Positions 24,594-40,132 of a DNA stretch of 64,000 nucleotides are shown piece by piece. The position numbers and the translations under genes are program-made. Source of the stretch: Thermococcus indicus (GTDB lineage Archaea; Methanobacteriota_B; Thermococci; Thermococcales; Thermococcaceae); NCBI RefSeq assembly GCF_006274605.1, contig NZ_CP040846.1:1557041-1621040 (forward strand), read 5' to 3'. The notes beneath the pieces are model-generated. The model did no database searches and was not told the origin of the DNA. It was given only the letters and a program-made list of their open reading frames with translations. Each line of letters opens with the position of its first letter. Within the stretch, counting starts at the first letter, position 1.

Positions 24594-25703
24594 ATGTATA
24601 GGGCCGAGTTCGAGCTCGAAACGATTACGCCCCTTTTCATGAGGGGTGCCGACCAGAGTAAGGCCGAGTTCCGTCCAGCGAGCGTCAAGGGAGTGATGCG
24701 GTGGTGGTTCAGGGCTCTCACTCATGCTGTTCTCCTGGGCAACGTCGGGGAGAAGGATGCGCTTTCCATTGTGAAGGGCCTGGAGTCTAAGCTCTTTGGG
24801 AGCACTGGCCAGAGGTCTCGTGTTTTGATCAGAACGTCATTCAAAAAGAAAGGGGAAGTTGATGTTCGGGAACTGGGGGCGAGGTATCTGAGCTTCGGCC
24901 TCTCTGGCGGGGGGCTCGTTGGAACGGCAAGGATCGAACTTCTCTCCCACAAACGCGAATACCTTGAAATGGCAAAGGTAGTTGCGGAGGTTGCCTTTGC
25001 CTTCGGTGGACTGGGGGCCAGAACGACCCGTGGAATGGGGAGCGTTCAGCCCCTCGGTGAGGGAGTAACACCATTATACCTTAAGAATGTTTATCAATCG
25101 GCCGTTGAGGTCGTCGGTGATTACTTTGGGTATAACCTGAATAGAGCATCCAAGGCTGAGCTTCCCGAGTTCCCTGCGCTCCACCCGAGGTTCTTCAGGG
25201 TTAAGCTCGGCTCGGAGAAATACACCGTCCCCTACGGCAGTGGCAGTGCCCTCTCGGCAATAGAAAGAGAGTTTCACAGATTCAGGCACAGTGGTCCAGA
25301 GCACGAGAGAATGATTAAGGGTAGATGGATATCGTACAGGATCACAGCGCAGTATGATGCGGTTAAGAAAGCTTATAATGGCGATTCCAATGTTGAACTT
25401 CCCTACTCAGCCTTTGGTCTTCCCCACCAGTACAACTTCTTTTCCTCCAATGTTAGGGGTCTGATGATAGAGGGTGAGGTTCATGGAAGACGGGCCTCCC
25501 CGGTCAGGTTCAAGGTGGTGAGGGACTCTAACGGAAAATACCGTGTGATGATCATCTACCTTAAGTACAGGTTCCTGCCTGCGGATGAAAGGTTAAAGGT
25601 AAGGATTAGGCGGAATACCTTGGCAAAGGGCATCCCACAGCCAGATTACAGCGCAGTCGAACGCTTCGTTGGTAATTTTTCAGGTTTGGAGGTGTTCCAA
25701 TGA
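24594..25703 (+). CDS. cmr1: Type III-B RAMP protein Cmr1 (Cas7 group)
   Basis: 369 residues. The N-terminus (FELETITPLFMRGADQSKAEFRPASVKGVMRWWFRAL) is the typical Cmr1 opening with the 'RWWFRA' signature. A glycine-rich loop (FGGLGARTTRGMGSVQPL) follows in the centre. Cmr1 caps the 3' end of the Cmr effector and contacts the crRNA end and target RNA. It overlaps cmr2 by ATGA and has GTGAGGTG before its start. Confidence 0.94.
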   Translation: MYRAEFELETITPLFMRGADQSKAEFRPASVKGVMRWWFRALTHAVLLGNVGEKDALSIVKGLESKLFGSTGQRSRVLIRTSFKKKGEVDVRELGARYLSFGLSGGGLVGTARIELLSHKREYLEMAKVVAEVAFAFGGLGARTTRGMGSVQPLGEGVTPLYLKNVYQSAVEVVGDYFGYNLNRASKAELPEFPALHPRFFRVKLGSEKYTVPYGSGSALSAIEREFHRFRHSGPEHERMIKGRWISYRITAQYDAVKKAYNGDSNVELPYSAFGLPHQYNFFSSNVRGLMIEGEVHGRRASPVRFKVVRDSNGKYRVMIIYLKYRFLPADERLKVRIRRNTLAKGIPQPDYSAVERFVGNFSGLEVFQ

Positions 25704-28546
25704 ACCCCTGGAACTCCTACGCTCGGGCCCTCAGGGAGGTTGCTCCTTCAAAACTTCTCGGGAGCTTGATTGGGAGAAACGACCTCCCAGAGGAGTGGAG
25801 GCACCTTTCAAGCTATCCGGCTCTGGAAAACCCAGAGCTTGATAAGTTTGTTCTCAAGCACCCCATAAGCGCCGACGGGAAGCCCCTTGAGAACCTCAGC
25901 GTTTTCTGGTTCAATGCCAGCGATGAGCAAAGGGGGCGCTTCTTGGAAGCAATATCGAGGGCGGAGGAAAGAATTGCCACCGAAATAGAGAACTCTTCCT
26001 CTGTCGAAAAATTTGCAAAGCTATGGAACGGCCTGCCAGCGAAGCTGAAGGAGGAATACAGGAAAGTTCTTGAAGAGGGGAGATTTAAAAACGCCGATGC
26101 AATCGCTGAAGAGCTCGTTCATTTTCCAGCCGAGCCGGCTTTACCCGACCACGACTGGCTGAGCAGGCTGGACGTTTACGCCCTCGTGAGAACAGGAAAG
26201 GTCAAGCTTCTCCGCTTCAAGCTCTCGCCGGTTCAGGGGTTCATAGCCAACGCGAGAACCGAGCGGGACCTCTGGGCCGGCAGCCACATGCTGAGCCTGC
26301 TCACCTATCTCGCCATCTCGGAAATCTGGCGCTCCTTTGGACCGAACGCCCTTGTGATCCCCCATCTAAGGGGCCAACCTTTCTTCGAGCATGAGCTTGA
26401 TCTCAAGTCCCTGGAAGAGGAGCTTCACGTCGCCAACATGCCCAACAAGATCCTGGCTATGGTCCCAGAAAGTGCCAATATTGAGGCATTGAGGCACAGG
26501 ATAGAATCCAGGCTCAGGGACTTCATGGAGACCATCTTCCGCTCCGCCTGGGAGTTCTACGACATGGACCTGGAGTTCAAAATGGAGAGCGTTTACCTTG
26601 ACACCATTAGGGGACACTTCTCCGTAACCGTTGAGACTGTTCCTCTGGTGAAGCTCAATGAAGTCATAGAGGAGCCTCTTCGAGCTTACCTTGAAAAGCT
26701 CCCCGACGAGTTTGAGGGAGACGTTCACCATTACCCAGAGCTATTTGCGGTTCTTGACCAGAAGACCGATTTCTCCTCCCTCAACCATGAGAAACCTGAA
26801 CAGCCAATGGGATTCCGGTGCACGCTGTGCGGTGAGCACCTTGCCATAGGGGGAAGAGCCAACTACAAGGCTGTCTCAAAGGCGTGGGAAGAACTCAGGA
26901 AGCGCCTCACGATCAGGAAGGTTTACGACATCAAGGACAAGGAGCGCCTCTGCCCCGTCTGTCTCGCAAAGCGCTTCTATCCGAGGTTCTACTCCCTGTG
27001 GGTAGATGACTTCTCATGGGTTTCACGGGACTTCGGAGCGATTGCCAAAAAGACCAAACAGTCCGGGAATCTCAGGTTGAAGCGCTTCCGCTCGGTCAGT
27101 GAGGTTGCGATGAGGAGGCCAACGGAGAAAGCCTGGAGGCTCTTTGAGAGGGGCGAACTGGAGGTAAACGGAAGGCCCGTTACCTGGTACGATGTCTTCC
27201 TTTATATCGCCCTCGACTTCGTCCAGGAATGGCGCGGAACCTTCTCAAAGCCTACCTTCTCGGGAACCATTGCGGGGGAGTTTGAATCAACGCTGAAAAA
27301 TCTGGAGAAAGAGTTTGAGCCACTCTTCAGGAATCTGTCCCCGAACTCTGAGGCCCTCTACGTGGAGAACATCAGAGACACCGAAGCCCTGGCCAAGGTA
27401 TACGGGGTCGGGATTCAGGAGTTGCCTGAGAACGTCAGCCTGGACTCAATAGCAGCGATAATTTCCCGGATATCTGAACTGATAGGGGAACCCCCCAAGT
27501 ACTACGCGGTTCTCAAGATGGACGGCGATAACATGGGAAAGGTTCTCAGTGGTTCAAAGGCTGTGAAGGACGTTGGGGAATACTTTGTCAGTGAATCTAA
27601 AGTCGGCGCACTCAGACCAGTCACACCGGTAATCCACACAGCGATAACCCGTTCCCTGAGCAGGTTCGCCGTTGGACTGGTGCCGAACGTTGCCGAGACC
27701 CACGACGCGGAGCTTCTCTACGCGGGTGGCGACGATGTTCTGGCTCTCGTGCCCATTGACAGAGCGTTTTCCCTGTCCTACGATGTCCGGGGAGAGTTCA
27801 GCGAGAACTGGATTGGCCACGAGCCCCTCCAGGGCGACACAAGAAGCATGAGCGGCGGGCTTTTAATAAGCTATTACAAGGAGCCTCTCTACGCTATTAT
27901 CCCGGATGTTAACAAACTCGAACACCTCGCCAAGGAATCCGGGAGGAACGCCCTGGCCATCGGCTACAGGAAGCACAGTGGAGCGTTCTACAAGGTGGTC
28001 GTGAACTGGGAGACCTTCGAGAATGCCCGCTACGTCTATCTCCTCGATGCCCTTAGGAATGGAAAGCTCAGCAGAAAGCTGGCGTACGAACTGAACACGG
28101 AAACGTGGCCCAACGAACCATGGGCCGTTCTCAACCTGCTGAAGTACGAGTTCAGTAGGCACTCGAATTACGGGAGGGACGAAAGAGAAGAGTTCACCAA
28201 GATCCTGGCGTCTTTCCTATGGCTCGTAAAAAACGTGAGGGTGGTTCTAACGAGGGAGGAGCTGGGGGCAACAACGGAAAAGTCCCCCGAGGAAGTGAAC
28301 AAGGAGATAGCGAAAGTCGTGGCCAGCGACCCGGAGAGAGAATTCATCAGCCCGTTTAATAGCGTTGTCAGCGTTGCCAGGGCGCTGGTGGAGAACAGAA
28401 TGCCAGAGGCGATTGCAGAAAAGCAGTGGTTTGACGTGCTCTCCGAGAAGGTAGGGAGCAGAGTAGCTGGGATGGTGGTGAAAAAACAGGTCGCCGGAGC
28501 GGCCGTGCTCCTCAAAGTTCTCCTCGAAACGGGGGTGAGGAAATGA
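25700..28546 (+). CDS. cmr2: Type III-B Cas10 (Cmr2) with cyclase palm; HD nuclease motif not seen
   Basis: 948 residues. A zinc site is formed by CTLCGEHL (about 373) and CPVCLAKRF (about 418). The first palm motif is VLKMDGDNMGKVLSG (about 605) and the second is LLYAGGDDVLALVP (GGDD at 676-679), so synthesis of cyclic oligoadenylate on target RNA binding is expected. The Cmr2-typical stretch LLRFKLSPVQGFIANARTERDLWAGSHML is present. The N-terminal HD signature of Pyrococcus Cmr2 (LHDPPDK-like) is absent; the first 60 residues read MNPWNSYARALREV... instead, and the ATGA overlap with cmr1 leaves no room for a longer start. It probably lacks DNase activity. Confidence 0.95.
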   Translation: MNPWNSYARALREVAPSKLLGSLIGRNDLPEEWRHLSSYPALENPELDKFVLKHPISADGKPLENLSVFWFNASDEQRGRFLEAISRAEERIATEIENSSSVEKFAKLWNGLPAKLKEEYRKVLEEGRFKNADAIAEELVHFPAEPALPDHDWLSRLDVYALVRTGKVKLLRFKLSPVQGFIANARTERDLWAGSHMLSLLTYLAISEIWRSFGPNALVIPHLRGQPFFEHELDLKSLEEELHVANMPNKILAMVPESANIEALRHRIESRLRDFMETIFRSAWEFYDMDLEFKMESVYLDTIRGHFSVTVETVPLVKLNEVIEEPLRAYLEKLPDEFEGDVHHYPELFAVLDQKTDFSSLNHEKPEQPMGFRCTLCGEHLAIGGRANYKAVSKAWEELRKRLTIRKVYDIKDKERLCPVCLAKRFYPRFYSLWVDDFSWVSRDFGAIAKKTKQSGNLRLKRFRSVSEVAMRRPTEKAWRLFERGELEVNGRPVTWYDVFLYIALDFVQEWRGTFSKPTFSGTIAGEFESTLKNLEKEFEPLFRNLSPNSEALYVENIRDTEALAKVYGVGIQELPENVSLDSIAAIISRISELIGEPPKYYAVLKMDGDNMGKVLSGSKAVKDVGEYFVSESKVGALRPVTPVIHTAITRSLSRFAVGLVPNVAETHDAELLYAGGDDVLALVPIDRAFSLSYDVRGEFSENWIGHEPLQGDTRSMSGGLLISYYKEPLYAIIPDVNKLEHLAKESGRNALAIGYRKHSGAFYKVVVNWETFENARYVYLLDALRNGKLSRKLAYELNTETWPNEPWAVLNLLKYEFSRHSNYGRDEREEFTKILASFLWLVKNVRVVLTREELGATTEKSPEEVNKEIAKVVASDPEREFISPFNSVVSVARALVENRMPEAIAEKQWFDVLSEKVGSRVAGMVVKKQVAGAAVLLKVLLETGVRK

Positions 28547-29598
28547 TTGAGATAATCCCCAACGACGTTCTCTTCTTCAGAGAGAGCCGGGACTTCACAG
28601 CCGGTCAGAACCACGTGGGCAGGACGATTGAGCCACTCCCCCACACCGTTGCCGGAGCGCTGATGGGAGCGCTCTTTGTGAGGGATCATCTGGAGATTCT
28701 CAACCTGGAAATCTCAGACGGTAGGATCGTGAAGGTTTCGGAAAACGGGGGCAACTGGCATCCAGGCTTTTCAATAGAGGGAGTTTTCTTCCACGACGGC
28801 ACGGGACCACTCTTCAGAATTCCGATGGACATCGTTGAGACCGAGGGCGGCATCGCCGAGCTGAGGCCATATAATCCCATTGAAGGGGAGCGTGCCGTTT
28901 TCGCCCGCGGAAATGATGGTTCCAGAACTCTGAGGTTCTCACCGCTCAACGGCTTTACGAGCTGGGATTTTATCAGGGGATACCTTGAAGGAAGGCCAAA
29001 CTTCGATGGAATTCACGCCGAGATACCATATGTGAAGGAGGAACGCGTTGGGATAGCCCTTGACAGATCAAGAACGACGGTGCGAGGGTTACTCTACAGG
29101 GCCGAGTTCCTTAGACTCCTTGAGGTGGAAAGAAGGTTTAGAATAGCTGTTTACCTTTCCCAAGGTGACGAAGAGAAATTGATGGAAGCGCTAGGGAAGG
29201 AGGGGAAGCTGAAGCTCGGGGGCGAATCGAGGTTCGCGGGCTTCAGGTTCACCGACGGAAAATTGCCCGCTGCCATGGGCAGAAGCGTCAATGCAGGCGA
29301 CATCATAAGGGTTTATCTGGCCACGCCCGCCGTTGGAAAGGTGGAGGAACTGAAGGAAGGGATAACCTCCAGGCTGGGAGGTAAGGTCAGGTTCCTTAGG
29401 CTCTTCACAGGACGGAGAATACTGGTTACAGGATGGGACATGGTTGAGAGGATGCCAAAGCCCCTCAAGTACGCCCTGCCAGCAGGGACGGTCCTCTGGT
29501 TCGAGGCAAAGGAGCCCCTTAACATTTCCGGAAAGCTCCGTATCGGCGAGATGACATGGGCCGGTTACGGTCTTGTCTTCATGGGGGTGCTAGGTTGA
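28543..29598 (+). CDS. cmr3: Type III-B RAMP protein Cmr3 (Cas5 group)
   Basis: 351 residues. Begins IEIIPNDVLFFRESRDFTAGQNHVGRTIEPLPHTVAGAL, the standard Cmr3 N-terminus, and has the C-terminal RAMP loop (EMTWAGYGLVFMG). Cmr3 sits with Cmr2 at the crRNA 5'-tag end. It overlaps cmr2 upstream (ATGA) and csx1 downstream (TTGA). Confidence 0.95.
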   Translation: MIEIIPNDVLFFRESRDFTAGQNHVGRTIEPLPHTVAGALMGALFVRDHLEILNLEISDGRIVKVSENGGNWHPGFSIEGVFFHDGTGPLFRIPMDIVETEGGIAELRPYNPIEGERAVFARGNDGSRTLRFSPLNGFTSWDFIRGYLEGRPNFDGIHAEIPYVKEERVGIALDRSRTTVRGLLYRAEFLRLLEVERRFRIAVYLSQGDEEKLMEALGKEGKLKLGGESRFAGFRFTDGKLPAAMGRSVNAGDIIRVYLATPAVGKVEELKEGITSRLGGKVRFLRLFTGRRILVTGWDMVERMPKPLKYALPAGTVLWFEAKEPLNISGKLRIGEMTWAGYGLVFMGVLG

Positions 29599-31127
29599 AA
29601 AGGGTTCTTGTGGCTACCTGGGGGAACCCGTTCCAGTGGGAGGCCATAGAATACAGCGCTGATTGCAAATCGCTAGGACTCAGCGACTGTCAAAATGTGA
29701 AGGAGGAAAACGTGAGCACGCTGCCTGTTCTTTTGAAGGCCTTGAAACCTCAGAAAACCATAATACTCGTCCTTGACACCCTGGCGAACCTGACGCTCAG
29801 GAACGACGTCCCAGCTAGGAAGATGGAAAGCTACGATAACGTCAAGGCGGACGTCGAGGAAAGGGTCAGGTGGTTCATAGAGAACCGCGTAAATCCATAC
29901 ATGAGTGAAGAGGACCGCGCCCTGCTCGATGACGTCGAGATAGTGGTTCTGCCTGGTGTTGGAGAGTTCAGCAACGTCAGCGTGGAGGGCGACGTTCTTG
30001 ACTTCTACTCCTCTGTCCTGAAGGTTCTCGCCGAGAGGCTCCCGGTTGAGGACACCGAAGTAATCCTTGACTTAACCCACGGGATAAACTTCATGCCTGT
30101 TCTGACTTACCGGGCGCTCAATGCTCTGCTCGGTATACTAGCTTACCTCCGCACCGCGAGGCTGTACGTGGTAAACTCTGAACCCTTCCCTCAGGGAGAA
30201 AGGGAGTGGAAGGAGAAAATAAAGCCCCTCTCTGTTCTCAACATGAAGCTCGTGGAGTACCTTGAGCTGAGGCCCAGACCGCTCTACTCGACGATTTCGA
30301 GCAGGCCAAAATGGTCGGCCTTCATAAGCTCCGTTACCAACGGTTTTCCGCTGGCGTTCGCAACTTTCTATCCTTCGCAGAAGGAGGTTGAGGAGTACTT
30401 GGAGAGAGAGCACCTCGATTTCCTCAACAACATTGTGGTGTCCTTTAGACCCGATCCCACTGGGGTAATGAAGCTCCACGTTCTCCGCGGAAAATCCCTG
30501 AGCAAGGACTTCAGAACCGCTGTAAAGCTCCACTACATGTTAAGGGTCTTTGGAACGGAGTTCAAAGGTTACCCGAAGAAAGAGGTTACCCTCGACGAGC
30601 TCGTGAGGATAACGAACAGGCTCTTCTCCAGGATGCCCAGGATTGGCATAGTCGTTGGAGACCAGCTGAGGGAACTCTGCAGGCTCATCAAAGGAGGCTA
30701 TGAATACGTTAATGGCACGAGCCGGTTCAGGCCGGGGGTTCTCGACAGACTTTCGGGGAAGCATGTTGATAAGCCATTGCTTCCCCTCAAGAGGGGCAAG
30801 AAAATAGCCCTTGGGAAACTGAGGAGTGCCATGCGATTAACTTCCCCGTCGGTGGGTTCAGTGAACCCCACCCCTGACATCAGGAACTTCATAGCCCACT
30901 CCGGCTTTGAGTACAACCTGGTCTTCGTGAGGTACGATGGAACGGACATCTACTGGTCATACGGAAAAATGGGGTGTGGCAAGCTCGTGAAGGCCGATGA
31001 AAACTGCGAGAGCAGGTGCGCGAGAATTGACGAAACCCTCTCCACGTGCTCCTGCTCAGACGACGTTGTTGTTTGCTTCCTCATAGGCGCGCTCAAGATG
31101 AAAAATTCAAAGGGGGTGGTCTGCTGA
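29595..31127 (+). CDS. csx1: Csx1-family CARF-HEPN ribonuclease with cysteine-rich tail
   Basis: 510 residues from a TTG that overlaps the cmr3 stop (TTGA). The N-terminal CARF-type domain reads KRVLVATWGNPFQWEAIEYS ... EVILDLTHGINFMPVLTYRA. The C-terminal HEPN domain has the R-x4-H active site in RNFIAHSGF (R430, H435). Csx1 enzymes are RNases switched on by cyclic oligoadenylate from Cas10. After HEPN comes a tail with seven cysteines in the last ~52 residues (ENCESRC, STCSC and others), unusual for a cytosolic hyperthermophile protein. It lies inside the cmr operon, between cmr3 and cmr4. Confidence 0.9.
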   Translation: MKRVLVATWGNPFQWEAIEYSADCKSLGLSDCQNVKEENVSTLPVLLKALKPQKTIILVLDTLANLTLRNDVPARKMESYDNVKADVEERVRWFIENRVNPYMSEEDRALLDDVEIVVLPGVGEFSNVSVEGDVLDFYSSVLKVLAERLPVEDTEVILDLTHGINFMPVLTYRALNALLGILAYLRTARLYVVNSEPFPQGEREWKEKIKPLSVLNMKLVEYLELRPRPLYSTISSRPKWSAFISSVTNGFPLAFATFYPSQKEVEEYLEREHLDFLNNIVVSFRPDPTGVMKLHVLRGKSLSKDFRTAVKLHYMLRVFGTEFKGYPKKEVTLDELVRITNRLFSRMPRIGIVVGDQLRELCRLIKGGYEYVNGTSRFRPGVLDRLSGKHVDKPLLPLKRGKKIALGKLRSAMRLTSPSVGSVNPTPDIRNFIAHSGFEYNLVFVRYDGTDIYWSYGKMGCGKLVKADENCESRCARIDETLSTCSCSDDVVVCFLIGALKMKNSKGVVC

Positions 31128-32128
31128 TGAAGAGCCTAGTCTTGGGTCTCTACGCCGTGACTCCCCTGCACCCGGGGAGCGGCTCGGAGATAAGCGTTAT
31201 CGACCTGCCGATACAGAGGGAAAGACACACCGGCTTTCCCGTGATATGGGGTCAGAGCCTCAAGGGTGTTCTCAGGAGTGCATTCGGAGATTATGAACTT
31301 GAAAGTAGGGAAGAAAGCGGACAGAAGCTCCGGGAGATCATTAAAGCAGAGCTCTTAGAGATAGAGAAGAAACTAAAATCTGACATACCCGAAGAAGAAG
31401 TCAAGGAGCTGATAACAAGGAAAACCGAGCTAGAAAATCTCCTTCTCTCACCACCGATGACGACGGCAATATTCGGACCCCCAACCAACAGAGCCAGCGA
31501 ACACGCGGGAGCGATAGCTGTCGGCGACGCGAAGATACTCCTCTTCCCTGTCAGGAGCGCAAATGGCGTCTTCGCCTACGTCACCAGCCCGATGGTGCTT
31601 GAGCGGTTTAAGAGAGACCTCCAGCTCGCGGGCCGCAACGCTGATTTTGAAGTCCCTGCGGTCGGGAAGGGCAAGGCGCTCGTTACCGGTAATTCCGACG
31701 TTGAAAACAACGGCAGGGTAATTCTTGAGGAGCTGGTTCTCGACGTTGAGGACAGGGTTGACGAGAAGGTGATAGATGCAATCAAACTCGTCCTCCCGGA
31801 GGGCATCGACGTTTCCAGGAGGATCGTCATAGTGGACGACGACGTCTTCTCAACCTTCGTGAGGCTCTCCACCGAGATAGTGGCAAGGGTTGCGATAGAC
31901 GCCTCGAAGGGGACGGTAAAGCAGGGTGGCCTCTGGTACGAGGAGTTCCTACCCAGCGATACGCTGCTCTACTCTGTGATAATCGTTGGCAACCCAAGGG
32001 GAGGGGCGCTGAAGAGCGAAGAGGAAGTAGAAGAGACTCTGAGGGGATTCATCACGGATACCAGATACCTCCAGGTCGGGGGCGACGAGACTGTTGGGAA
32101 GGGCTTCGTTCTGGCGAAGCCGGGGTGA
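31127..32128 (+). CDS. cmr4: Type III-B RAMP protein Cmr4 (Cas7 backbone)
   Basis: 333 residues starting at the ATG that shares a base with the csx1 stop. Opening LGLYAVTPLHPGSGSEISVIDLPIQRERHTGFPVIWGQSLKGVLR is diagnostic of Cmr4. The loop ending HTGFPVIWG is followed by a helix-rich insert (residues about 50-105) with heptad-like charge pattern. Cmr4 forms the backbone and cuts target RNA; the catalytic Asp of this family is expected near IDLPIQRE. It ends GGDETVGKGFV, the glycine-rich RAMP loop. Confidence 0.95.
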   Translation: MKSLVLGLYAVTPLHPGSGSEISVIDLPIQRERHTGFPVIWGQSLKGVLRSAFGDYELESREESGQKLREIIKAELLEIEKKLKSDIPEEEVKELITRKTELENLLLSPPMTTAIFGPPTNRASEHAGAIAVGDAKILLFPVRSANGVFAYVTSPMVLERFKRDLQLAGRNADFEVPAVGKGKALVTGNSDVENNGRVILEELVLDVEDRVDEKVIDAIKLVLPEGIDVSRRIVIVDDDVFSTFVRLSTEIVARVAIDASKGTVKQGGLWYEEFLPSDTLLYSVIIVGNPRGGALKSEEEVEETLRGFITDTRYLQVGGDETVGKGFVLAKPG

Positions 32129-32694
32129 TGAGGATGGACATCAAGACGCTTGACCAGGAGCGGGCCGAGTTCGCCTACAGGAGCGTTCTTGAAGTTGCAA
32201 ACCTCTCAGTAAAGGACAGTAAAGGCAATGATAGAGGCTCTGAGGTTGGGAGCAAGTACCGCTCTTACGTCAAGAGTGCCCCTGTGCTGATCCTCACCAA
32301 CGGCCTTGGGCAGGCGCTGGCCTTTTACAGATCAAAAATAAAACCTGAAGCTAACATTGTTGGACCTAATGAGAACACAGACAATCAGAATAATTCAGTA
32401 CTCTACACTAAGCTTCCAGAATGGATAATCAAGATGATGACTGAGACCAAAACTGATAAGACACCAAAGTTCTCAGCTGACAGACTTGCTTATGCCTACC
32501 TCTACAAGCACATAGCCGAGTGGCTCGGCGAGAGGGGTCTCACCGACGGAAAGGACCCGCTGAAGGCCTACACCGAGAAGAACGCCCTCAATGCTGTCCT
32601 TTTGACCGAGGAGACCATAGCCTTTCTCAACTGGTTGAGACGCTTCGCAGATGCGATGCTGGAGGAGGACAAGGAAAGCGGTGAAGGGGCATGA
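32128..32694 (+). CDS. cmr5: Type III-B small subunit Cmr5 (Cas11)
   Basis: 188 residues from the ATG at 32128, which overlaps the cmr4 stop; an ATG at 32134 is also possible. All-helical with the family pattern LDQERAEFAYRSVLEVA ... KYRSYVKSAPVLILTNGLGQALAFYRSK ... AYAYLYKHIAEWL. Cmr5 lines the inner filament of the effector complex. It overlaps cmr6 by ATGA. Confidence 0.94.
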   Translation: MRMDIKTLDQERAEFAYRSVLEVANLSVKDSKGNDRGSEVGSKYRSYVKSAPVLILTNGLGQALAFYRSKIKPEANIVGPNENTDNQNNSVLYTKLPEWIIKMMTETKTDKTPKFSADRLAYAYLYKHIAEWLGERGLTDGKDPLKAYTEKNALNAVLLTEETIAFLNWLRRFADAMLEEDKESGEGA

Positions 32695-33770
32695 GGAGAA
32701 ACTTCAAAGACAGCGCGTGGGGGAACAGGAGACCCGATAGAAAAAGCCGAGGCTTCCACCGTAAGGTGAGGAGGAAGGGGGAAAGCAGGAATCGAAACGC
32801 CTGCTACTATCTCCCAAGAGACACCTTGAGTGCCCTTGAAATCTCCAACCCGAGTGAAAAGTTCCTAAACACCAAAGACGTCAAAAACCTCTCCCTGCTC
32901 CTCGACAAGTTTGCCCCCTATTCCAAAGAAAAGGGCTTAGTAAACGACTGCCACTCCGAAAACCCCAAGGCCAGCGGGAACGTTCTCAAAACCCTCCTCG
33001 GGGAAATAAAGGTGCCTGGAGAAGCAGTCTCGCTGTACAAGGACTACTTCAGGCTCTATGAAATGTTTGTGAACAGTATCGGGGCGGAAAAAGAAATCCT
33101 TGCTTCAAGGACGAGGCTCGTGGTTGGCCTCGGCGATGAGAGCGTCTATGAGACCAGCATAAGGCTCCTCAGGAACTACGGCGTTCCCTACATCCCCGGC
33201 TCGGCACTGAAGGGAATAACGAGGGCATGGGCAACGGAGATGATGGCGGAGCTGTTGGATGGGGCCGGTGGTTTCAGCGGGGACTTCTACGAGCGCGCGG
33301 GCCAGGTTCAGAAGTTTCTCAGCGAGGGAAAAGCCGGGAAATTTCCGGAGAATTCTGAAGTAACTCCCTCCGGAGAGATTGAGGAGTTCGTGAACACCGT
33401 TGGGGTCGGAAATAGCCCCAGAAGAATAGCAGAGAAACTCGTTGAACTCTTTGGAACGACTAAAAACCGGGGCAAGGCCATCTTCCTCGATGCTCTGCCG
33501 GTTCCTCCTGGCAGGGGCGACTGGCACCTTTTCGAGTGGGACATAATGAACCCCCACTACGGGCCGTACTACCAGAGAGGTGAACCTCCAGGCGACTGGC
33601 ACAGCCCCGTTCCGGTAATCTTCCTGACGGTAAAGGCCAAAACGCCGTTCCTCTTTGGAGTCGCTGGCGAGATGAAGGAGACCGCCTGGGAACTGCTCAA
33701 ACTGGCCATCGAAAATCACGGCGTTGGGGCTAAAACGACCCTCGGCTACGGGCGTTTCAACGTTCCCTGA
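32691..33770 (+). CDS. cmr6: Type III-B RAMP protein Cmr6 (Cas7 group)
   Basis: 359 residues. The RAMP core reads RTRLVVGLGDESVYETSIRLLRNYGVPYIPGSALKGITRAW, with the 'PGSALKG' signature, and the C-terminal loop GVGAKTTLGYGRFNV. The first ~40 residues are very basic (RRNFKDSAWGNRRPDRKSRG) and may touch RNA. It is the last gene of the cas1-cas2-cmr1-2-3-csx1-4-5-6 operon and ends where the second leader begins. Confidence 0.94.
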   Translation: MRRNFKDSAWGNRRPDRKSRGFHRKVRRKGESRNRNACYYLPRDTLSALEISNPSEKFLNTKDVKNLSLLLDKFAPYSKEKGLVNDCHSENPKASGNVLKTLLGEIKVPGEAVSLYKDYFRLYEMFVNSIGAEKEILASRTRLVVGLGDESVYETSIRLLRNYGVPYIPGSALKGITRAWATEMMAELLDGAGGFSGDFYERAGQVQKFLSEGKAGKFPENSEVTPSGEIEEFVNTVGVGNSPRRIAEKLVELFGTTKNRGKAIFLDALPVPPGRGDWHLFEWDIMNPHYGPYYQRGEPPGDWHSPVPVIFLTVKAKTPFLFGVAGEMKETAWELLKLAIENHGVGAKTTLGYGRFNVP

Positions 33771-34441
33771 GGTTTCCATCAATTTCCCCATAACGCCAGC
33801 ATCAACGAAACCCAGCGTTGTTGCCCTGTCCTTCTTAACTTTTCTTAATTGTAATTTATCTGGTGGGATCCCGATTATGGATGTCTGGGTTTGGCCCTGT
33901 TTCTAGATTTTAGTATTTTATTGGCCTAGACTTTTTGCTATAGTAAAGCGCTGAGCTCGGCAAGATTGTAAAATTTTGGAAGAGCTAAAAAACATCTTTT
34001 TAGGACTTTTTGGGCTGAAATGAGATTTTAAGAACGTTTTAACGTGAGTTGGGAGTTTTACTCATAGTTTAGAGATTGAGGGATTTTTGTCCCTTTTTTC
34101 AGACCTTGAAGGTTTTTGCAGGAATCCCGATTGTGGATTTTTGAAAACTTCGGAGTTTTTGGATTTTGAGACTCTGTACCTCTAGACTTTAGGCGCTCGT
34201 AAGGCGCTTGATTAAAAGCAGTCTTAAATTTCTTGGGAGGGATTCTCTCGGCTGTTTAAGGATTCCAGTCGAAGTTCCAAGTTTGTAGGCTTATAGTTTC
34301 TTCCCGTTTTTCATACCGGTTCCATTTCTTCTTTCGTGTCCATTTTAATGTTTCTTCCATTGAATTCGTCTCCCGCAAGCGTAATGTTTTTAAGAGGTTG
34401 ATTTGCATCTTTACTTACCTAAAGGGGTCTCCAGAGGCATG
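33771..34441 (+). promoter_or_regulatory. CRISPR leader of the long array
   Basis: 671 AT-rich bases without a credible gene, between cmr6 and repeat 1. It shares ordered blocks with the other leader (GATCCCGATTATGG-like, GCAGGAATCCCGATT, GCGCTTGATTAAAAGCAGT, TTTTTAAGAGGTTG). The TTTTTAAGAGG block lies about 50 bases before the first repeat and is the likely array promoter. Confidence 0.7.
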
Positions 34442-35480
34442 GTTTACGCAGAACATAGTTGTTTGGAAACCTCGTATGAGATCGTTTTTGGGACAGCAAA
34501 AACATGTCTTATGTTTACGCAGAACATAGTTGTTTGGAAACCCAACCCTGTAAAAGTAGCCATTCATCAGTTTCTCCATCCCATGGTTTACGCAGAACAT
34601 AGTTGTTTGGAAACAAAATATCCTTGTCCAAGGCCACCATGATTATTTTGGCTTTGATGTTTACGCAGAACATAGTTGTTTGGAAACCTTCTCTGCAACT
34701 CCAGGAATTTTCGCACTCACTGGTGAGTCAACATGTTTACGCAGAACATAGTTGTTTGGAAACCTCTATGTACTCCCGGTCACAGCTTAAGAGCCACTTT
34801 GCCCGTTTACGCAGAACATAGTTGTTTGGAAACGCCTTTGAAGGAACTTACGGGCCATTTGAACTTGGGAAGTTTACGCAGAACATAGTTGTTTGGAAAC
34901 CCCCTCCGGATCAAAAAATACGTAAATCCTATCACTTTCTATTTTCACGTTTACGCAGAACATAGTTGTTTGGAAAATGCCGATCATACGCGATAAGCCC
35001 CAGTCTGATTGCTCTTCAGTTTACGCAGAACATAGTTGTTTGGAAAAGTTTGCTTCCGTTGGCTCCTTCAACGCGTCCTCCATGAGCTTCGTTTACGCAG
35101 AACATAGTTGTTTGGAAAAGTCTTATTTTTTCGGTGAGATTTCTCGCTACCTCCTCCGCGTTTACGCAGAACATAGTTGTTTGGAAAAGCATCCCATTCC
35201 TTGTCCGCCCACCTTCTGCTATCTTGTCTGTCGTTTACGCAGAACATAGTTGTTTGGAAACCTCCTTGGCAGGCTTTCCAGAATCATAGCAAATGTGGTC
35301 GAAAGTTTACGCAGAACATAGTTGTTTGGAAACACCCATGTGCCCTTCTCTGGGAGCTCCGGGGCTTCTGTTTCAAGTTTACGCAGAACATAGTTGTTTG
35401 GAAACTGCAAGCCTGTGCAAGTCGGCGATATGCCTGCCCAACTTCCATTGACGTTTACGCAGAACATAGTTGTTTGGAAA
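34442..35480 (+). CRISPR. CRISPR array: 15 repeats, 14 spacers
   Basis: Identical 28-base repeats (GTTTACGCAG ... GTTTGGAAA) start at 34442, 34513, 34586, 34659, 34735, 34805, 34872, 34949, 35019, 35091, 35160, 35233, 35305, 35377 and 35453. Spacers are 39-49 bases, the long and variable kind seen with type III systems. The base after the repeat is C in most copies, A in copies 8-11 and G in the last. No degenerate repeat is seen at the far end. The leader is on the left, so the newest spacers are at the left. Confidence 0.97.
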
Positions 35481-35621
35481 GCTGCTTAAGAACCCGTCAA
35501 GAGTCTTTTTAACGATCTCTTGTGGAGTTTACCAAAGACATGGTGTCCTTTAGGCGGGGAAAGCATTCCTCCCCAATGGACGCTGGGAGGGTTTGAGGCT
35601 GTGCTCCAGTGGGGTGGTGCT

Positions 35622-37067
35622 ATGAGGGCCTACGTTACCGTCGTTGGAACGACCCCCGAGGCGGTCTTCAACCCCCTCTGGTATCTGGCCGAGGTTTACT
35701 CGTGGATTCCCGAGAGGGTCTACCTCCTCTGGAACGATGACGTAACCGAGCAGCTTGAGCTGGTGAAGAGACTTATCGGGAAGCTTTCAGAGGCCTACAG
35801 GGTTTCTATTGAGGTGATAGCCGACGAAGGCATGAGCTTCACCGAGGAAGACCCCGTCCAGTTCAGGGAAAGGGCTGGGGAGCTGATAAGAAAGCTGAAG
35901 GCAGAGGGGCACGAGGTCGTCGTTGATATAACCCCCGGCAGAAAGTTCATGAGCGCGCTCCTCCTCGGCGCGGCGATCTCTATGGGCGCGGATGAAGTTA
36001 CATACCTCCACCTGGGGAACTTCAGGAGGTACGCGGGAAGGCTTCTCTTCGAGGTCCCGATGGCGGAGCAGAGGCTCTTCCGGAGGGAGGAACTCACCGG
36101 GAGGAAGGGCGCGCTGAAACTCGGCCGGCGGAAGAAAGATTCCCCTAAGAGCCTGGTGGTGAGCAGAGAGAACCTAATGGCCCTCCTCAACTCCCTTTAC
36201 CTCGACGGTCAGCGGAGGTTCAGGCTGGCAGTCAGGAGCGAGGAGATAGCGTCCGTGAAGCTGGGCGAGCGGGCGAGGATACGGGTCGGGGAGTACATAA
36301 CCCTCGACAGGGAACTCCACGGCGGGCACTCGATGGTGAAGGAGGCCATAATAGCTGGAATGGGGAGCTTCCGGAACTGGGACGGGCTGAAGGAAGAGGT
36401 TAAAGCTCTGCTCCACTCGGGAAGGCCGCTCTACATCGGCTTCGACACCAACGCCCTCCTCTTCCGCGTTCCATCGAAGCTCTTGGCCGAAAATGACTTT
36501 TACCGCAACGGTAACCTGGTCTTTGACTTCGTTTACTCCGACGAGGTTCAGGTCGAGATAGGGAGGCAGGTGAACGAGAAGTTACCCTTCGATCGGGAGC
36601 TTGGGTTTTACTCCAACCAGCCGACGCCAAGGGCGAGGTTGGCCTCTCTCGGCAGGGTGGAGCTTTACAGGCTGAGGGAGATGGGTGCGGAAAGAGCCGA
36701 CAGCAGGAGGGGCGAGAGGGGCGACACCAAGATAGCCCTGGACTACAAGTCCTTCGCGGAGGAGAAGGATGCGAACGTTCTGGTTATAACCCTCGACGAC
36801 AGGGCTTATGCGGAAATGGACGCGCTCAGGGGGAGCGGGCTGGTTCCCTTCAGGCTGGAGTGGGACTTTTCCTTTGGGGGAACCATTGAGGGGACGTGGG
36901 AGGGGCTAAGGGACACGCTTTACACGCTGGCGTCGGTTCTCGGGGAGCTGAACGTCCACACCTACAAGCTCTACGGTCTCTGGCACGGAAAGAATTCGGA
37001 GGACTGGAAAAGAGAAATGGTGAAGCTGAACGGCTTTGAATATGGCAGGATTTTCAGGGTTCTCTAA
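35622..37067 (+). CDS. CARF-PIN fusion, putative cyclic-oligoadenylate-controlled nuclease
   Basis: 481 residues from the ATG at 35622; earlier in-frame codons run back into the CRISPR end. The N-terminal ~150 residues look like a CARF domain: MRAYVTVVGTTPEAVFNPLW at the start and EVVVDITPGRKFMSALLLGA with the conserved D-I-T-P-G-R-K loop. The C-terminal half looks like a PIN nuclease, with PLYIGFDTNALLFRV (D275) and a late acidic cluster GDTKIALDYKSF ... VLVITLDDRAY (D392/D393). It starts 141 bases after the last repeat, so it is probably a type III effector. CARF-PIN combinations are catalogued in genome surveys; I know of no biochemistry. Fold calls are by motif only. Confidence 0.72.
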   Translation: MRAYVTVVGTTPEAVFNPLWYLAEVYSWIPERVYLLWNDDVTEQLELVKRLIGKLSEAYRVSIEVIADEGMSFTEEDPVQFRERAGELIRKLKAEGHEVVVDITPGRKFMSALLLGAAISMGADEVTYLHLGNFRRYAGRLLFEVPMAEQRLFRREELTGRKGALKLGRRKKDSPKSLVVSRENLMALLNSLYLDGQRRFRLAVRSEEIASVKLGERARIRVGEYITLDRELHGGHSMVKEAIIAGMGSFRNWDGLKEEVKALLHSGRPLYIGFDTNALLFRVPSKLLAENDFYRNGNLVFDFVYSDEVQVEIGRQVNEKLPFDRELGFYSNQPTPRARLASLGRVELYRLREMGAERADSRRGERGDTKIALDYKSFAEEKDANVLVITLDDRAYAEMDALRGSGLVPFRLEWDFSFGGTIEGTWEGLRDTLYTLASVLGELNVHTYKLYGLWHGKNSEDWKREMVKLNGFEYGRIFRVL

Positions 37068-37781: not shown

Positions 37782-38879
37782 TCATAGGATGGATATACCG
37801 AACAACCCCGATAACCATATCCCAGCTAACAGGACTTCAGGTATCCCCAGGAAAGAGATGTCCTCTTTTTCAATCCTAGAGAGCAGGAGGACCCAGAGGG
37901 AAAAAGTTATCGCTATAACGGGGACAATGAGGGTAGCGTGTTCGAGAACATAGGGTATTGTTAAGAAAACCGCGATGCCGTCAATTAGTGCCCTCAGCTC
38001 ACCCGGCGTTACCGTGCTGAATCCATGGTAGTGGAGGAATCCGCCGGCAGTCTTTCTTACCGCAATCATCGCAATTCCAAAGGCCGGAAGGAGTAGTGGT
38101 ATTCCTCCGCTTATCGCCCACAGGGGAAGGAACACAATGAAAGTCAAAAAGAAAAAGGAAAAGAGCATCGCCCCCTGTCCGTATCTGGAGATGTAGATCA
38201 GCGCCAACAGGCCGACAACTGCGGAAAGGGCCGTAAGCGTATCGTTTGGATACCCTAAAGAGACAGGGCCCGTTTTGAGAACTGGGACCGAGAGCACGAA
38301 CATAGCCGCCCCCACAGGATAGAAGCGAATCCCGTAGGAATCCTTCAAGAAGAACGCATAACCTACGGCATCCCTCGCGGCATATTGGATGACCGCCAGT
38401 GGACCGAGAAGCGCGAAATACAGGGCGGTCAGGTATATGTCGCCCTCCGCTGTGTCCTCCATCACGACGTTCTCCGTGTAGCCGATCATCAGTCCGACAA
38501 GCATCCATGAGGCAGTCTGTGAGGCGGGCCAGAGTCTTGAGCTTATGAATGCCGCGGGCAGGGCTATGACGGTGAGGGCATAGGCGATCCTTTCCTTTCC
38601 AGATGTCAGCGCCAGGGTGAATGCCCAGAACAGAGGGAGCAGAAAGTACGAATGAAGAAACGATTCGAAGCTGATTATGGACATCGAGATGAACGCCGCG
38701 TAGATGATTTTCGTGGGAACTGCTTGGTTCAAATAGTCGCTCCATGCCGTTGCCGCGATTACCAGAACTGGGAAAATCGTCGAAGGGGATCGCCAGAAAT
38801 GGGGTTCAAGGATAACCCACAGGCTTGCAACGGCCATTATGATGAAAGAAACGTAGCGCCTGTAACCTATGCCCCCCAT
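37782..38879 (-). CDS. Multi-pass membrane protein of unknown function
   Basis: 365 residues with roughly ten to eleven hydrophobic segments and short loops, no signature of a known transporter. Helices include LVIAATAWSDYLNQAVPTKIIYAAF and AISGGIPLLLPAFGIAMIAV. It lies 73 bases downstream of the membrane CARF-like gene on the same strand, so the two are probably cotranscribed. The pairing suggests a membrane complex. Confidence 0.65.
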   Translation of the reverse strand: MGGIGYRRYVSFIIMAVASLWVILEPHFWRSPSTIFPVLVIAATAWSDYLNQAVPTKIIYAAFISMSIISFESFLHSYFLLPLFWAFTLALTSGKERIAYALTVIALPAAFISSRLWPASQTASWMLVGLMIGYTENVVMEDTAEGDIYLTALYFALLGPLAVIQYAARDAVGYAFFLKDSYGIRFYPVGAAMFVLSVPVLKTGPVSLGYPNDTLTALSAVVGLLALIYISRYGQGAMLFSFFFLTFIVFLPLWAISGGIPLLLPAFGIAMIAVRKTAGGFLHYHGFSTVTPGELRALIDGIAVFLTIPYVLEHATLIVPVIAITFSLWVLLLSRIEKEDISFLGIPEVLLAGIWLSGLFGISIL

Positions 38880-38952
38880 ACAACACCCCCATTAGTGAGC
38901 CATCGTTACCTCATAGGGATAAATAAAGTTTTCGGGGATGTGGAATTTCCCG

Positions 38953-40071
38953 CTACAGCCTCCGGTTGAGATTTCTCGCGACTTCGTTCAGAAGGTCCTT
39001 AAGGGAGTGTACGTCAAGGTCAACGCGGTAGAGGCTCTCCTCCGGTTCAACGTCTTGAACGTCTTGCCTCGTGTACTCCGCCTGGCAGTCGCCCTTTATC
39101 GCTTCAAGAACCATCGCGGCGCTTACCAGGGTCTTTCCGCCGGTTATGTCAAATGTCACCTCCCAGCTTTCCTCTTCGATGTGCCCTCCCACCGCTTCTT
39201 TTATGGCATCCCTGCACTCTTCAATGTCGTTGAAGTCCCCCGCGGAAACCAGTATGAACTCAATGACTCCTTCACCACTCCCGAGGCTCTCCCTCCTGCC
39301 ATCGGACCATCTGACGAGGATAGGCCTTCTGATGCATTCGGAGAGCTTTGTGAGAAAGGCCTTGAACTTGGTCTCGAAGGGGGACCTTCCGGTGTTGATT
39401 CCCCTCTCTTTGAGGTAATCCTCCTCGAACGAGACGTTCCCTCCCCATTCTAAAATGGACTTGGACACGAGGAGATAGACCCGCTCAAGCTTGGGCAGGT
39501 GATAGCTCACCGCTTGGAAAAGAGGCACTATGTTCTGTCTCCTTTCGTTCTCGTTCAACTCTGCGCTGTTCCTCCTGAGCTTTTCGCAGTTCGCGTTGAG
39601 AACAATCCCGGCGTTCCAGTTCGGCATGCTCAGCGCGGTTACGAGGTACTTTGTCCTCTTTAGCTCCCGGTTTTTGGTCTTTCCGGGGACAGGCTCCACC
39701 AGCCAGTATGTCAGCAGGAGAACCGAGAGTGTGTAAAGAATCGTCCCCGCGGTTTTCAGGGGTTCGCCATCGGAGATGCTGTCGGGAAGCCAGGCAGTTA
39801 AAACCCCCGCAAGGAGTATGAAGAGCAGGACACCCATGAGGCTCTCCACCTGCCCCAGGATCAGACCGATGAACTGCACCGAGAGAAACGTCTCAAGGCT
39901 AACGTCAGACCGCTTTCTGGCTCTATGATACAAGATCACTGAGACGAGAAAAACCGCCATCGATGCTATCAAAAACGGTAGATACGCTATCCTCTCCAAG
40001 GGCACGTAAAAAGCAGCTGGGGGAATCAGCAGAAGCACCGTCCAGAGGAGGGTTCTCCTGTCAGGCCGCAT
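38953..40071 (-). CDS. Four-helix membrane protein with cytosolic CARF-like domain
   Basis: 372 residues. Four hydrophobic segments lie at about 8-25, 28-48, 58-95 (two crossings possible) and 104-127, followed by a basic stop-transfer stretch. The rest is soluble. It contains ERVYLLVSKSILEWGG, EFILVSAGDFNDIEECRDAI and WEVTFDITGGKTLVSAAMVLEAI, with D308-I-T-G-G-K313 matching the ligand loop of CARF-type domains. Membrane CARF proteins such as Cam1 respond to cyclic oligoadenylate, but those have a single helix. A role as a type III effector is inferred from the domain and its place 3.5 kb from the array. Divergent from ABCE1. Confidence 0.68.
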   Translation of the reverse strand: MRPDRRTLLWTVLLLIPPAAFYVPLERIAYLPFLIASMAVFLVSVILYHRARKRSDVSLETFLSVQFIGLILGQVESLMGVLLFILLAGVLTAWLPDSISDGEPLKTAGTILYTLSVLLLTYWLVEPVPGKTKNRELKRTKYLVTALSMPNWNAGIVLNANCEKLRRNSAELNENERRQNIVPLFQAVSYHLPKLERVYLLVSKSILEWGGNVSFEEDYLKERGINTGRSPFETKFKAFLTKLSECIRRPILVRWSDGRRESLGSGEGVIEFILVSAGDFNDIEECRDAIKEAVGGHIEEESWEVTFDITGGKTLVSAAMVLEAIKGDCQAEYTRQDVQDVEPEESLYRVDLDVHSLKDLLNEVARNLNRRL

Positions 40072-40132
40072 GGATTAGAATATCCCGCAACCCTTTAAAA
40101 GGGCTTTCGGTAGGCTAAGTCGGTGGTGAGTG

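Follow-up and report, generated by a model that had tools for sequence, protein, structure and literature searches.

Gene content of the locus

The window (the whole 64,000-nucleotide stretch of Thermococcus indicus contig NZ_CP040846.1 that was analyzed) contained a cluster of cmr genes as well as a CRISPR array, and downstream of both the minus strand carried two genes, designated P1 and P2. Upstream of the array, the plus strand encoded Cas10/Cmr2 (25700..28546; PF22335 match at genome position C1:1584540-1584998, corresponding to 27500-27958 of the window), Csx1, a CARF-HEPN protein (29556..31127; Pfam Csx1_CARF, 2e-37; NCBIfam TIGR01897, 4e-76), and Cmr4, Cmr5, and Cmr6 (31046..33770; PADLOC E=1e-78, 7e-33, and 2e-59, respectively). 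The array (34429..35488), recognized by its repeat copies in the sequence, comprised 15 repeats at a spacing of ~72 nt. Between the array and P2, a plus-strand gene (35520..37067) encoded a CARF-PIN protein (CARF_m1--CARF_PIN), which was identified by PADLOC model PDLC01973 (E=1.4e-203) and by gene neighbourhoods.

P1 (38953..40071) and P2 (37782..38879) were ATG-started open reading frames of 372 and 365 amino acids, respectively, with P2 following P1 after a gap of 73 bases (38880-38952). Both were accepted as genes because conserved protein homologues are encoded elsewhere, in further genomes. The coordinates and description given by the first-pass annotation were accurate, as the two reading frames, the gap, the helices, and the array were all found.

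A gene encoding a 592-aa ABC-ATPase started divergently at 40130, 58 bases from the start of P1; its iron-sulphur and ABC motifs lead us to take this ATPase to be RLI/ABCE1-like. Between the two starts, a nearly palindromic stretch centred on TTTAAA (40091-40103) may be a shared TATA region. A small open reading frame between the CARF-PIN gene and P2 (37054-37662; 202 aa, probably shorter in reality) had no family matches and was kept next to CARF-PIN in two further genomes (L040:10649-11377 and L046:11901-12389). Outside the window, the same genome (G000) carried a second Cas10 at C1:1209093-1209521, and the same messengers may therefore also be supplied by another type III system.

P1 belongs to a catalogued family of membrane CARF proteins

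P1 was matched over its full length (residues 5-370 of 372) by PADLOC model PDLC01944, CARF8--CARF_TM (E=1.8e-94), and this model and further CARF_TM models were matched by all 15 aligned homologues. Membership of P1 in this family was thus observed directly, and the earlier proposal of a type III-linked membrane protein with a CARF domain was borne out by it and by the presence of Cas10 in most carrier genomes, as described below. Generic CARF models matched residues ~240-340, and most of the 15 homologues were matched on the same C-terminal stretch. Profile searches of Pfam and NCBIfam gave P1 no name, and no catalytic domain besides CARF was seen with Pfam, NCBIfam, or PADLOC.

The C-terminal CARF domain (residues 139-372; 38956..39657, minus strand) was supported by the generic models and by a Rossmann-like order of strands and helices in a low-confidence structure model. 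It contained the D-I-T-G-G-K loop at residues 308-313 (39133..39150, minus strand; FDITGGK, 307-313), whose DITGG motif was conserved, with T310, G312, and S317 invariant across the 15 homologues. The AlphaFold2 model, built from a two-sequence alignment, was poor (pLDDT 47). When it was searched with Foldseek, no match was significant; the CARF domain of cA4-bound Cam1 (8t65) had the highest probability (0.96, E=0.04) among the 50 matches listed, which we count as weak support only, since matches obtained with low-confidence models are, by the tool's own caution, meaningless. The CARF assignment of the predicted soluble part is based on sequence profiles, and P1 probably senses the CRISPR alarm molecule, cyclic oligoadenylate.

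The membrane domain (residues 7-125; 39697..40053, minus strand) was predicted to hold ~4 transmembrane helices from hydropathy, the family profile, and the alignment. Five hydrophobic stretches preceded the CARF domain (7-25, 28-46, 57-75, 77-95, and 107-125), with positive charge at the N-terminus, at 48-56, and after 125, and negative charge at 97-105. This charge pattern favours a topology in which four helices span the membrane, both termini are cytosolic, and 57-75 would be interfacial. Within the domain, the LTAWLPD region (residues ~91-97) was invariant in the homologue alignment.

Invariant residues in the membrane domain are more than an anchor would need, and they bear on a reading in which P1 is not an effector but a regulator anchored in the membrane, which would bind the messenger or break it down in the manner of a ring nuclease. 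A weak NCBIfam similarity of P1 to the ring nuclease Crn1 (E=0.02) points in that direction, as does the usual position of P1 beside other effectors (Csx1 and CARF-PIN) that would need damping. The full-length CARF_TM match and the lack of a visible catalytic domain besides CARF argue against it, however, and we regard a regulatory role as very unlikely.

The first-pass annotation held that a four-helix sensor with a separate multi-pass partner would be a different design, known membrane CARF effectors such as Cam1 having one helix. P1 is not a new design, and the one-helix premise did not hold: the protein was already catalogued as CARF8--CARF_TM, and PADLOC holds several multi-helix classes (CARF8--CARF_TM, "CARF, 2 TMs", and models combining TM and CARF). 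CARF8--CARF_TM is reportedly a class of Makarova's 2020 classification of the CARF superfamily. A literature search on CARF8 returned nothing relevant; the P1 family is catalogued but, as far as the literature searched shows, unstudied. A single-sequence scan of prokaryotic genome contigs and a search of viral contigs gave no match to P1, and a PDLC01944 search of 115 genomes of the phylum found nothing outside Thermococcales. One genome (G022, L041:9232-11652) carried two tandem P1 paralogues that were strongly diverged (28% identical).

P2 is a multi-pass membrane protein with conserved acidic residues

P2 contained ten hydrophobic stretches above a strict threshold, and ~12 helices were present in a low-confidence model (two-sequence alignment, pLDDT 40). 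Searches of Pfam, NCBIfam, and PADLOC with P2 alone or via 14 homologues gave no family beyond scattered chance matches, in agreement with its first description as a protein of about ten helices and no known domain. No solved relative was found, and Foldseek with the poor model returned an empty result. A scan of prokaryotic genome contigs with the P2 alignment matched a Thermococcus MAG only; the collection may omit near relatives, and only its lack of matches elsewhere is informative. No match was found in viral contigs or plasmids.

The aligned homologues had in common AWxDY, with invariant Asp48 (38736..38738), ExA (E96), E141, an invariant Gly146-Asp147 (38439..38444) within the motif AEGD...LGP, FxxLGP (155-160), PV (188-189), and a C-terminal LHYhGxS (residues 282-288; 38016..38036; Y284 and S288 invariant), all on the minus strand. 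Identity between subgroups was 25-30%, and hydrophilic invariants in such a fast-diverging hydrophobic protein suggest that Asp48, Glu141, Gly146-Asp147, and Tyr284/Ser288 form a conserved functional site and that P2 is not a passive anchor. By the positive-inside rule, which does not place the C-terminal half, D48, E96, E141, and D147 may face the cytosol.

The arrangement of these residues raised the question of whether P2 is a membrane enzyme, most likely similar to intramembrane aspartyl proteases of the GxGD type, acting as a defence effector or as a processor of a module protein. The invariant Asp48 (followed six residues later by I/V), the Gly-Asp147 followed by LGP, and then (Y)PxGP in most members occurred in the same order as D...GxGD...FGP in prepilin peptidases (Pfam Peptidase_A24), and a literal GSGD was read in a distant relative. 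Most members, however, had AEGD at the GxGD position, and the two aspartates of P2 were 99 residues apart, a longer spacing than the ~60 of the peptidases. Profile-profile comparison of P2 with 12-21 A24 peptidases in hhalign was not significant, the core comparison was equalled by 13 of 100 block shuffles, and in an hmmsearch rank test, with open reading frames of the fetched loci as decoys, the A24 profile did not place P2 above the decoys. Pfam gave no A24 match for 14 P2 members, and the Foldseek search was equally empty. Because every quantitative homology test was negative, P2 was not filed as a peptidase; we consider the protease reading unlikely and keep it as a lead only.

The distant relative, a protein of 284 aa in genome G041 (L058:9158-10012), was encoded away from CRISPR, among genes for a serine resolvase, coiled-coil proteins, and an SNF2/NO-VEIN helicase. 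From this setting, an origin of P2 from a mobile element is possible.

Co-occurrence with type III systems and CARF-PIN

Among 94 Thermococcales genomes, P1 was carried by 19, P2 by 15, Cas10 by 36, and CARF-PIN, counting matches of full or nearly full strength, by 19. Cas10 was present in 17 of the 19 P1 carriers (p=4e-7) and in all 15 P2 carriers (p=6e-8), and P1 was present in 14 of the 15 P2 carriers (p=9e-12), these and the following co-occurrence p values being uncorrected for phylogeny. Full-length CARF-PIN was associated with both P2 (p=9e-12) and P1 (p=6e-9). P2 was located directly upstream of CARF-PIN at least as often as downstream of P1, and the P1/P2 module has a third recurring member in the CARF-PIN nuclease. 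The linkage to type III systems and the association of the three genes are direct observations from these genomes. Homologues from different clades were only 25-35% identical, which indicated that the genes have stayed associated while diverging over a long time.

Equal frequency of homologues in genomes lacking type III systems would have spoken against the first-pass annotation, but was not observed. The only P1 carriers without Cas10 were G010, a 77%-complete assembly, and G014, a complete genome with a 157-codon remnant interrupted by stops (L043:9364-9834; 72% identical to P1 over residues 1-130). The presence of a remnant in a Cas10-less genome suggests that P1 decays once the type III system is lost.

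With such strong associations, P1 and P2 appear extremely unlikely to be mere neighbours that share a CRISPR island and have no link beyond both serving type III defence. The independent exchange and reshuffling of the two genes, described below, would fit co-residence, but the association of P1 with P2 was still found when the sample was restricted to Cas10-containing genomes (p=2e-6). The genes also stayed within kilobases of each other even where the island was far from Cas10: the distance between P1 and P2 was at most ~3.5 kb in 13 of 14 genomes, and the module was ~0.94 Mb from Cas10 in G007 and 20-24 kb in G005 and G011.

A probable exchangeable module rather than a locked pair

The first-pass annotation had proposed a sensor with a separate multi-pass partner. 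In that reading, P1 and P2 would make up one heteromeric channel or transporter gated by cyclic oligoadenylate, with P1 as sensor and gate and P2 as conduit. Besides the presence of P1 in nearly all P2 genomes, the tight spacing of the genes agrees with a heteromer, as P1 and P2 were adjacent on the same strand in the window (73 bp) and in G067 and G072 (22-37 bp). Decayed P2 also persisted beside P1 in G058, where minus-strand fragments of P2 were found just downstream of P1 (L042:8519-9173).

The orientation of the two genes varied, however. They were convergent with a 17-bp overlap in G005, G007, and G011, and in five genomes (G017, G022, G036, G039, and G044; loci L040, L041, L044, L046, and L047) P2 instead immediately preceded CARF-PIN on the same strand. 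Each gene also occurred alone, P1 in G016 and P2 in G006. Pairwise identities of P1 and P2 were uncorrelated (Spearman 0.08, p=0.44), whereas each correlated weakly with those of CARF-PIN (0.39 for P1 and 0.32 for P2). Between G017 and G039, P2 was 95% and CARF-PIN 97% identical, yet P1 was only 33% identical; between G000 and G044, CARF-PIN was 86% identical, P1 37%, and P2 29%.

Independent exchange of the genes was in this way seen directly, and such gene-by-gene exchange of alleles is what one usually sees in co-selected effectors rather than in a tight heteromeric channel. The shuffled order and orientation, the uncorrelated divergence of P1 and P2, and the G017/G039 pair argue against an obligate P1:P2 channel, which we judge unlikely. 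Of the proposed sensor and partner, linkage beyond chance thus stood, and a dedicated pair did not: alleles were exchanged independently, orientation varied, and P2 was operonic with CARF-PIN at least as often as with P1. P1 and P2 seem to be components of a single defence module and not partners in a fixed pair.

A further, tentative idea concerns P2. It could conceivably represent a new class of type III membrane effector or accessory protein, polytopic and with an acidic site that is conserved and faces the cytosol. Such a protein might be an intramembrane aspartyl protease, and it would work with CARF sensors that can replace one another, CARF8-TM or CARF-PIN, the three genes forming a mix-and-match module.

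Proposed mechanism and comparison with known systems

Our preferred reading, which we consider reasonably probable, is that P1 is a membrane effector of the CARF8-TM class gated by cyclic oligoadenylate, like Cam1 and Cap1, and that P2 is a separate accessory or effector of the same module and not an obligate subunit of P1. Upon recognition of target RNA, Cmr2/Cas10 would make cyclic oligoadenylate, which a cytosolic dimer of P1 CARF domains would bind through the DITGG and first-strand loops. The membrane domains, each of four helices and assembled in a higher oligomer, would then rearrange so that the membrane is permeabilised or depolarised, and this attack would arrest the infected cell, as for Cam1 and Cap1. 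P2 would be a second, separate membrane component of an exchangeable defence module that includes the CARF-PIN nuclease, and might act as an effector, as a regulator, or in protecting the host. We infer the ligand, the oligomer, and the pore of P1, as well as any function of P2.

The literature searched gave no mention of P2 or of the association of the three genes. What appears new here is the distribution of P2, CARF-PIN as a third member, the shuffled gene order with uncorrelated divergence of P1 and P2, and the finding that P1 without Cas10 occurs only in a remnant or an incomplete genome. CARF-TM effectors are common in sequence catalogues and few have been studied (Cam1 and Cap1 in the literature searched); a four-helix archaeal CARF-TM protein with a recurring, unannotated polytopic companion offers a testable case of type III membrane attack in hyperthermophiles. 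The pattern of allele swapping predicts which gene pairs should function together.

Several known systems can be compared with the module. P1 is a member of CARF8--CARF_TM (PDLC01944), and no difference from that class was found. CARF or CARF-like domains gate small membrane pores after cA4 binding in Cam1 (PMC10808066) and Cap1 (PMC12642688). Cam1 has 206 aa, one transmembrane helix, and a putative tetrameric pore with D17 (Baca et al. 2024, PMC10808066). P1 shares with it an N-terminal membrane part, a C-terminal CARF domain predicted to be cytosolic (the Cam1 CARF domain being also the non-significant Foldseek match), and the link to type III systems, but is larger, with 372 aa and ~four helices. 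Cap1 has two transmembrane helices, which also contradicts the supposed one-helix rule, a DUF4579 domain, and a cA4-gated pore (PMC12642688, 2025 preprint). P1 likewise combines a multi-helix membrane domain with a CARF-like sensor; it differs in having ~four helices and no DUF4579 match found. By analogy, P1 most likely follows the same logic as Cam1 and Cap1 with a larger membrane domain, as a membrane-permeabilising effector gated by cyclic oligoadenylate. The order of the D...GxGD...GP-like motifs in P2 resembles that of Peptidase_A24, without significant profile similarity. A companion comparable to P2 is Cam3, a multi-pass protein of unknown role that is encoded next to Cami1 and always travels with a type III effector (Hoikkala 2024, PMC11229360). 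Cam3 has an N-terminal soluble domain and ~six transmembrane helices (PMC11229360), whereas P2, which is also a multi-pass membrane protein accompanying a type III effector, differs from that description in having no visible soluble N-terminal domain and ten or more hydrophobic segments.
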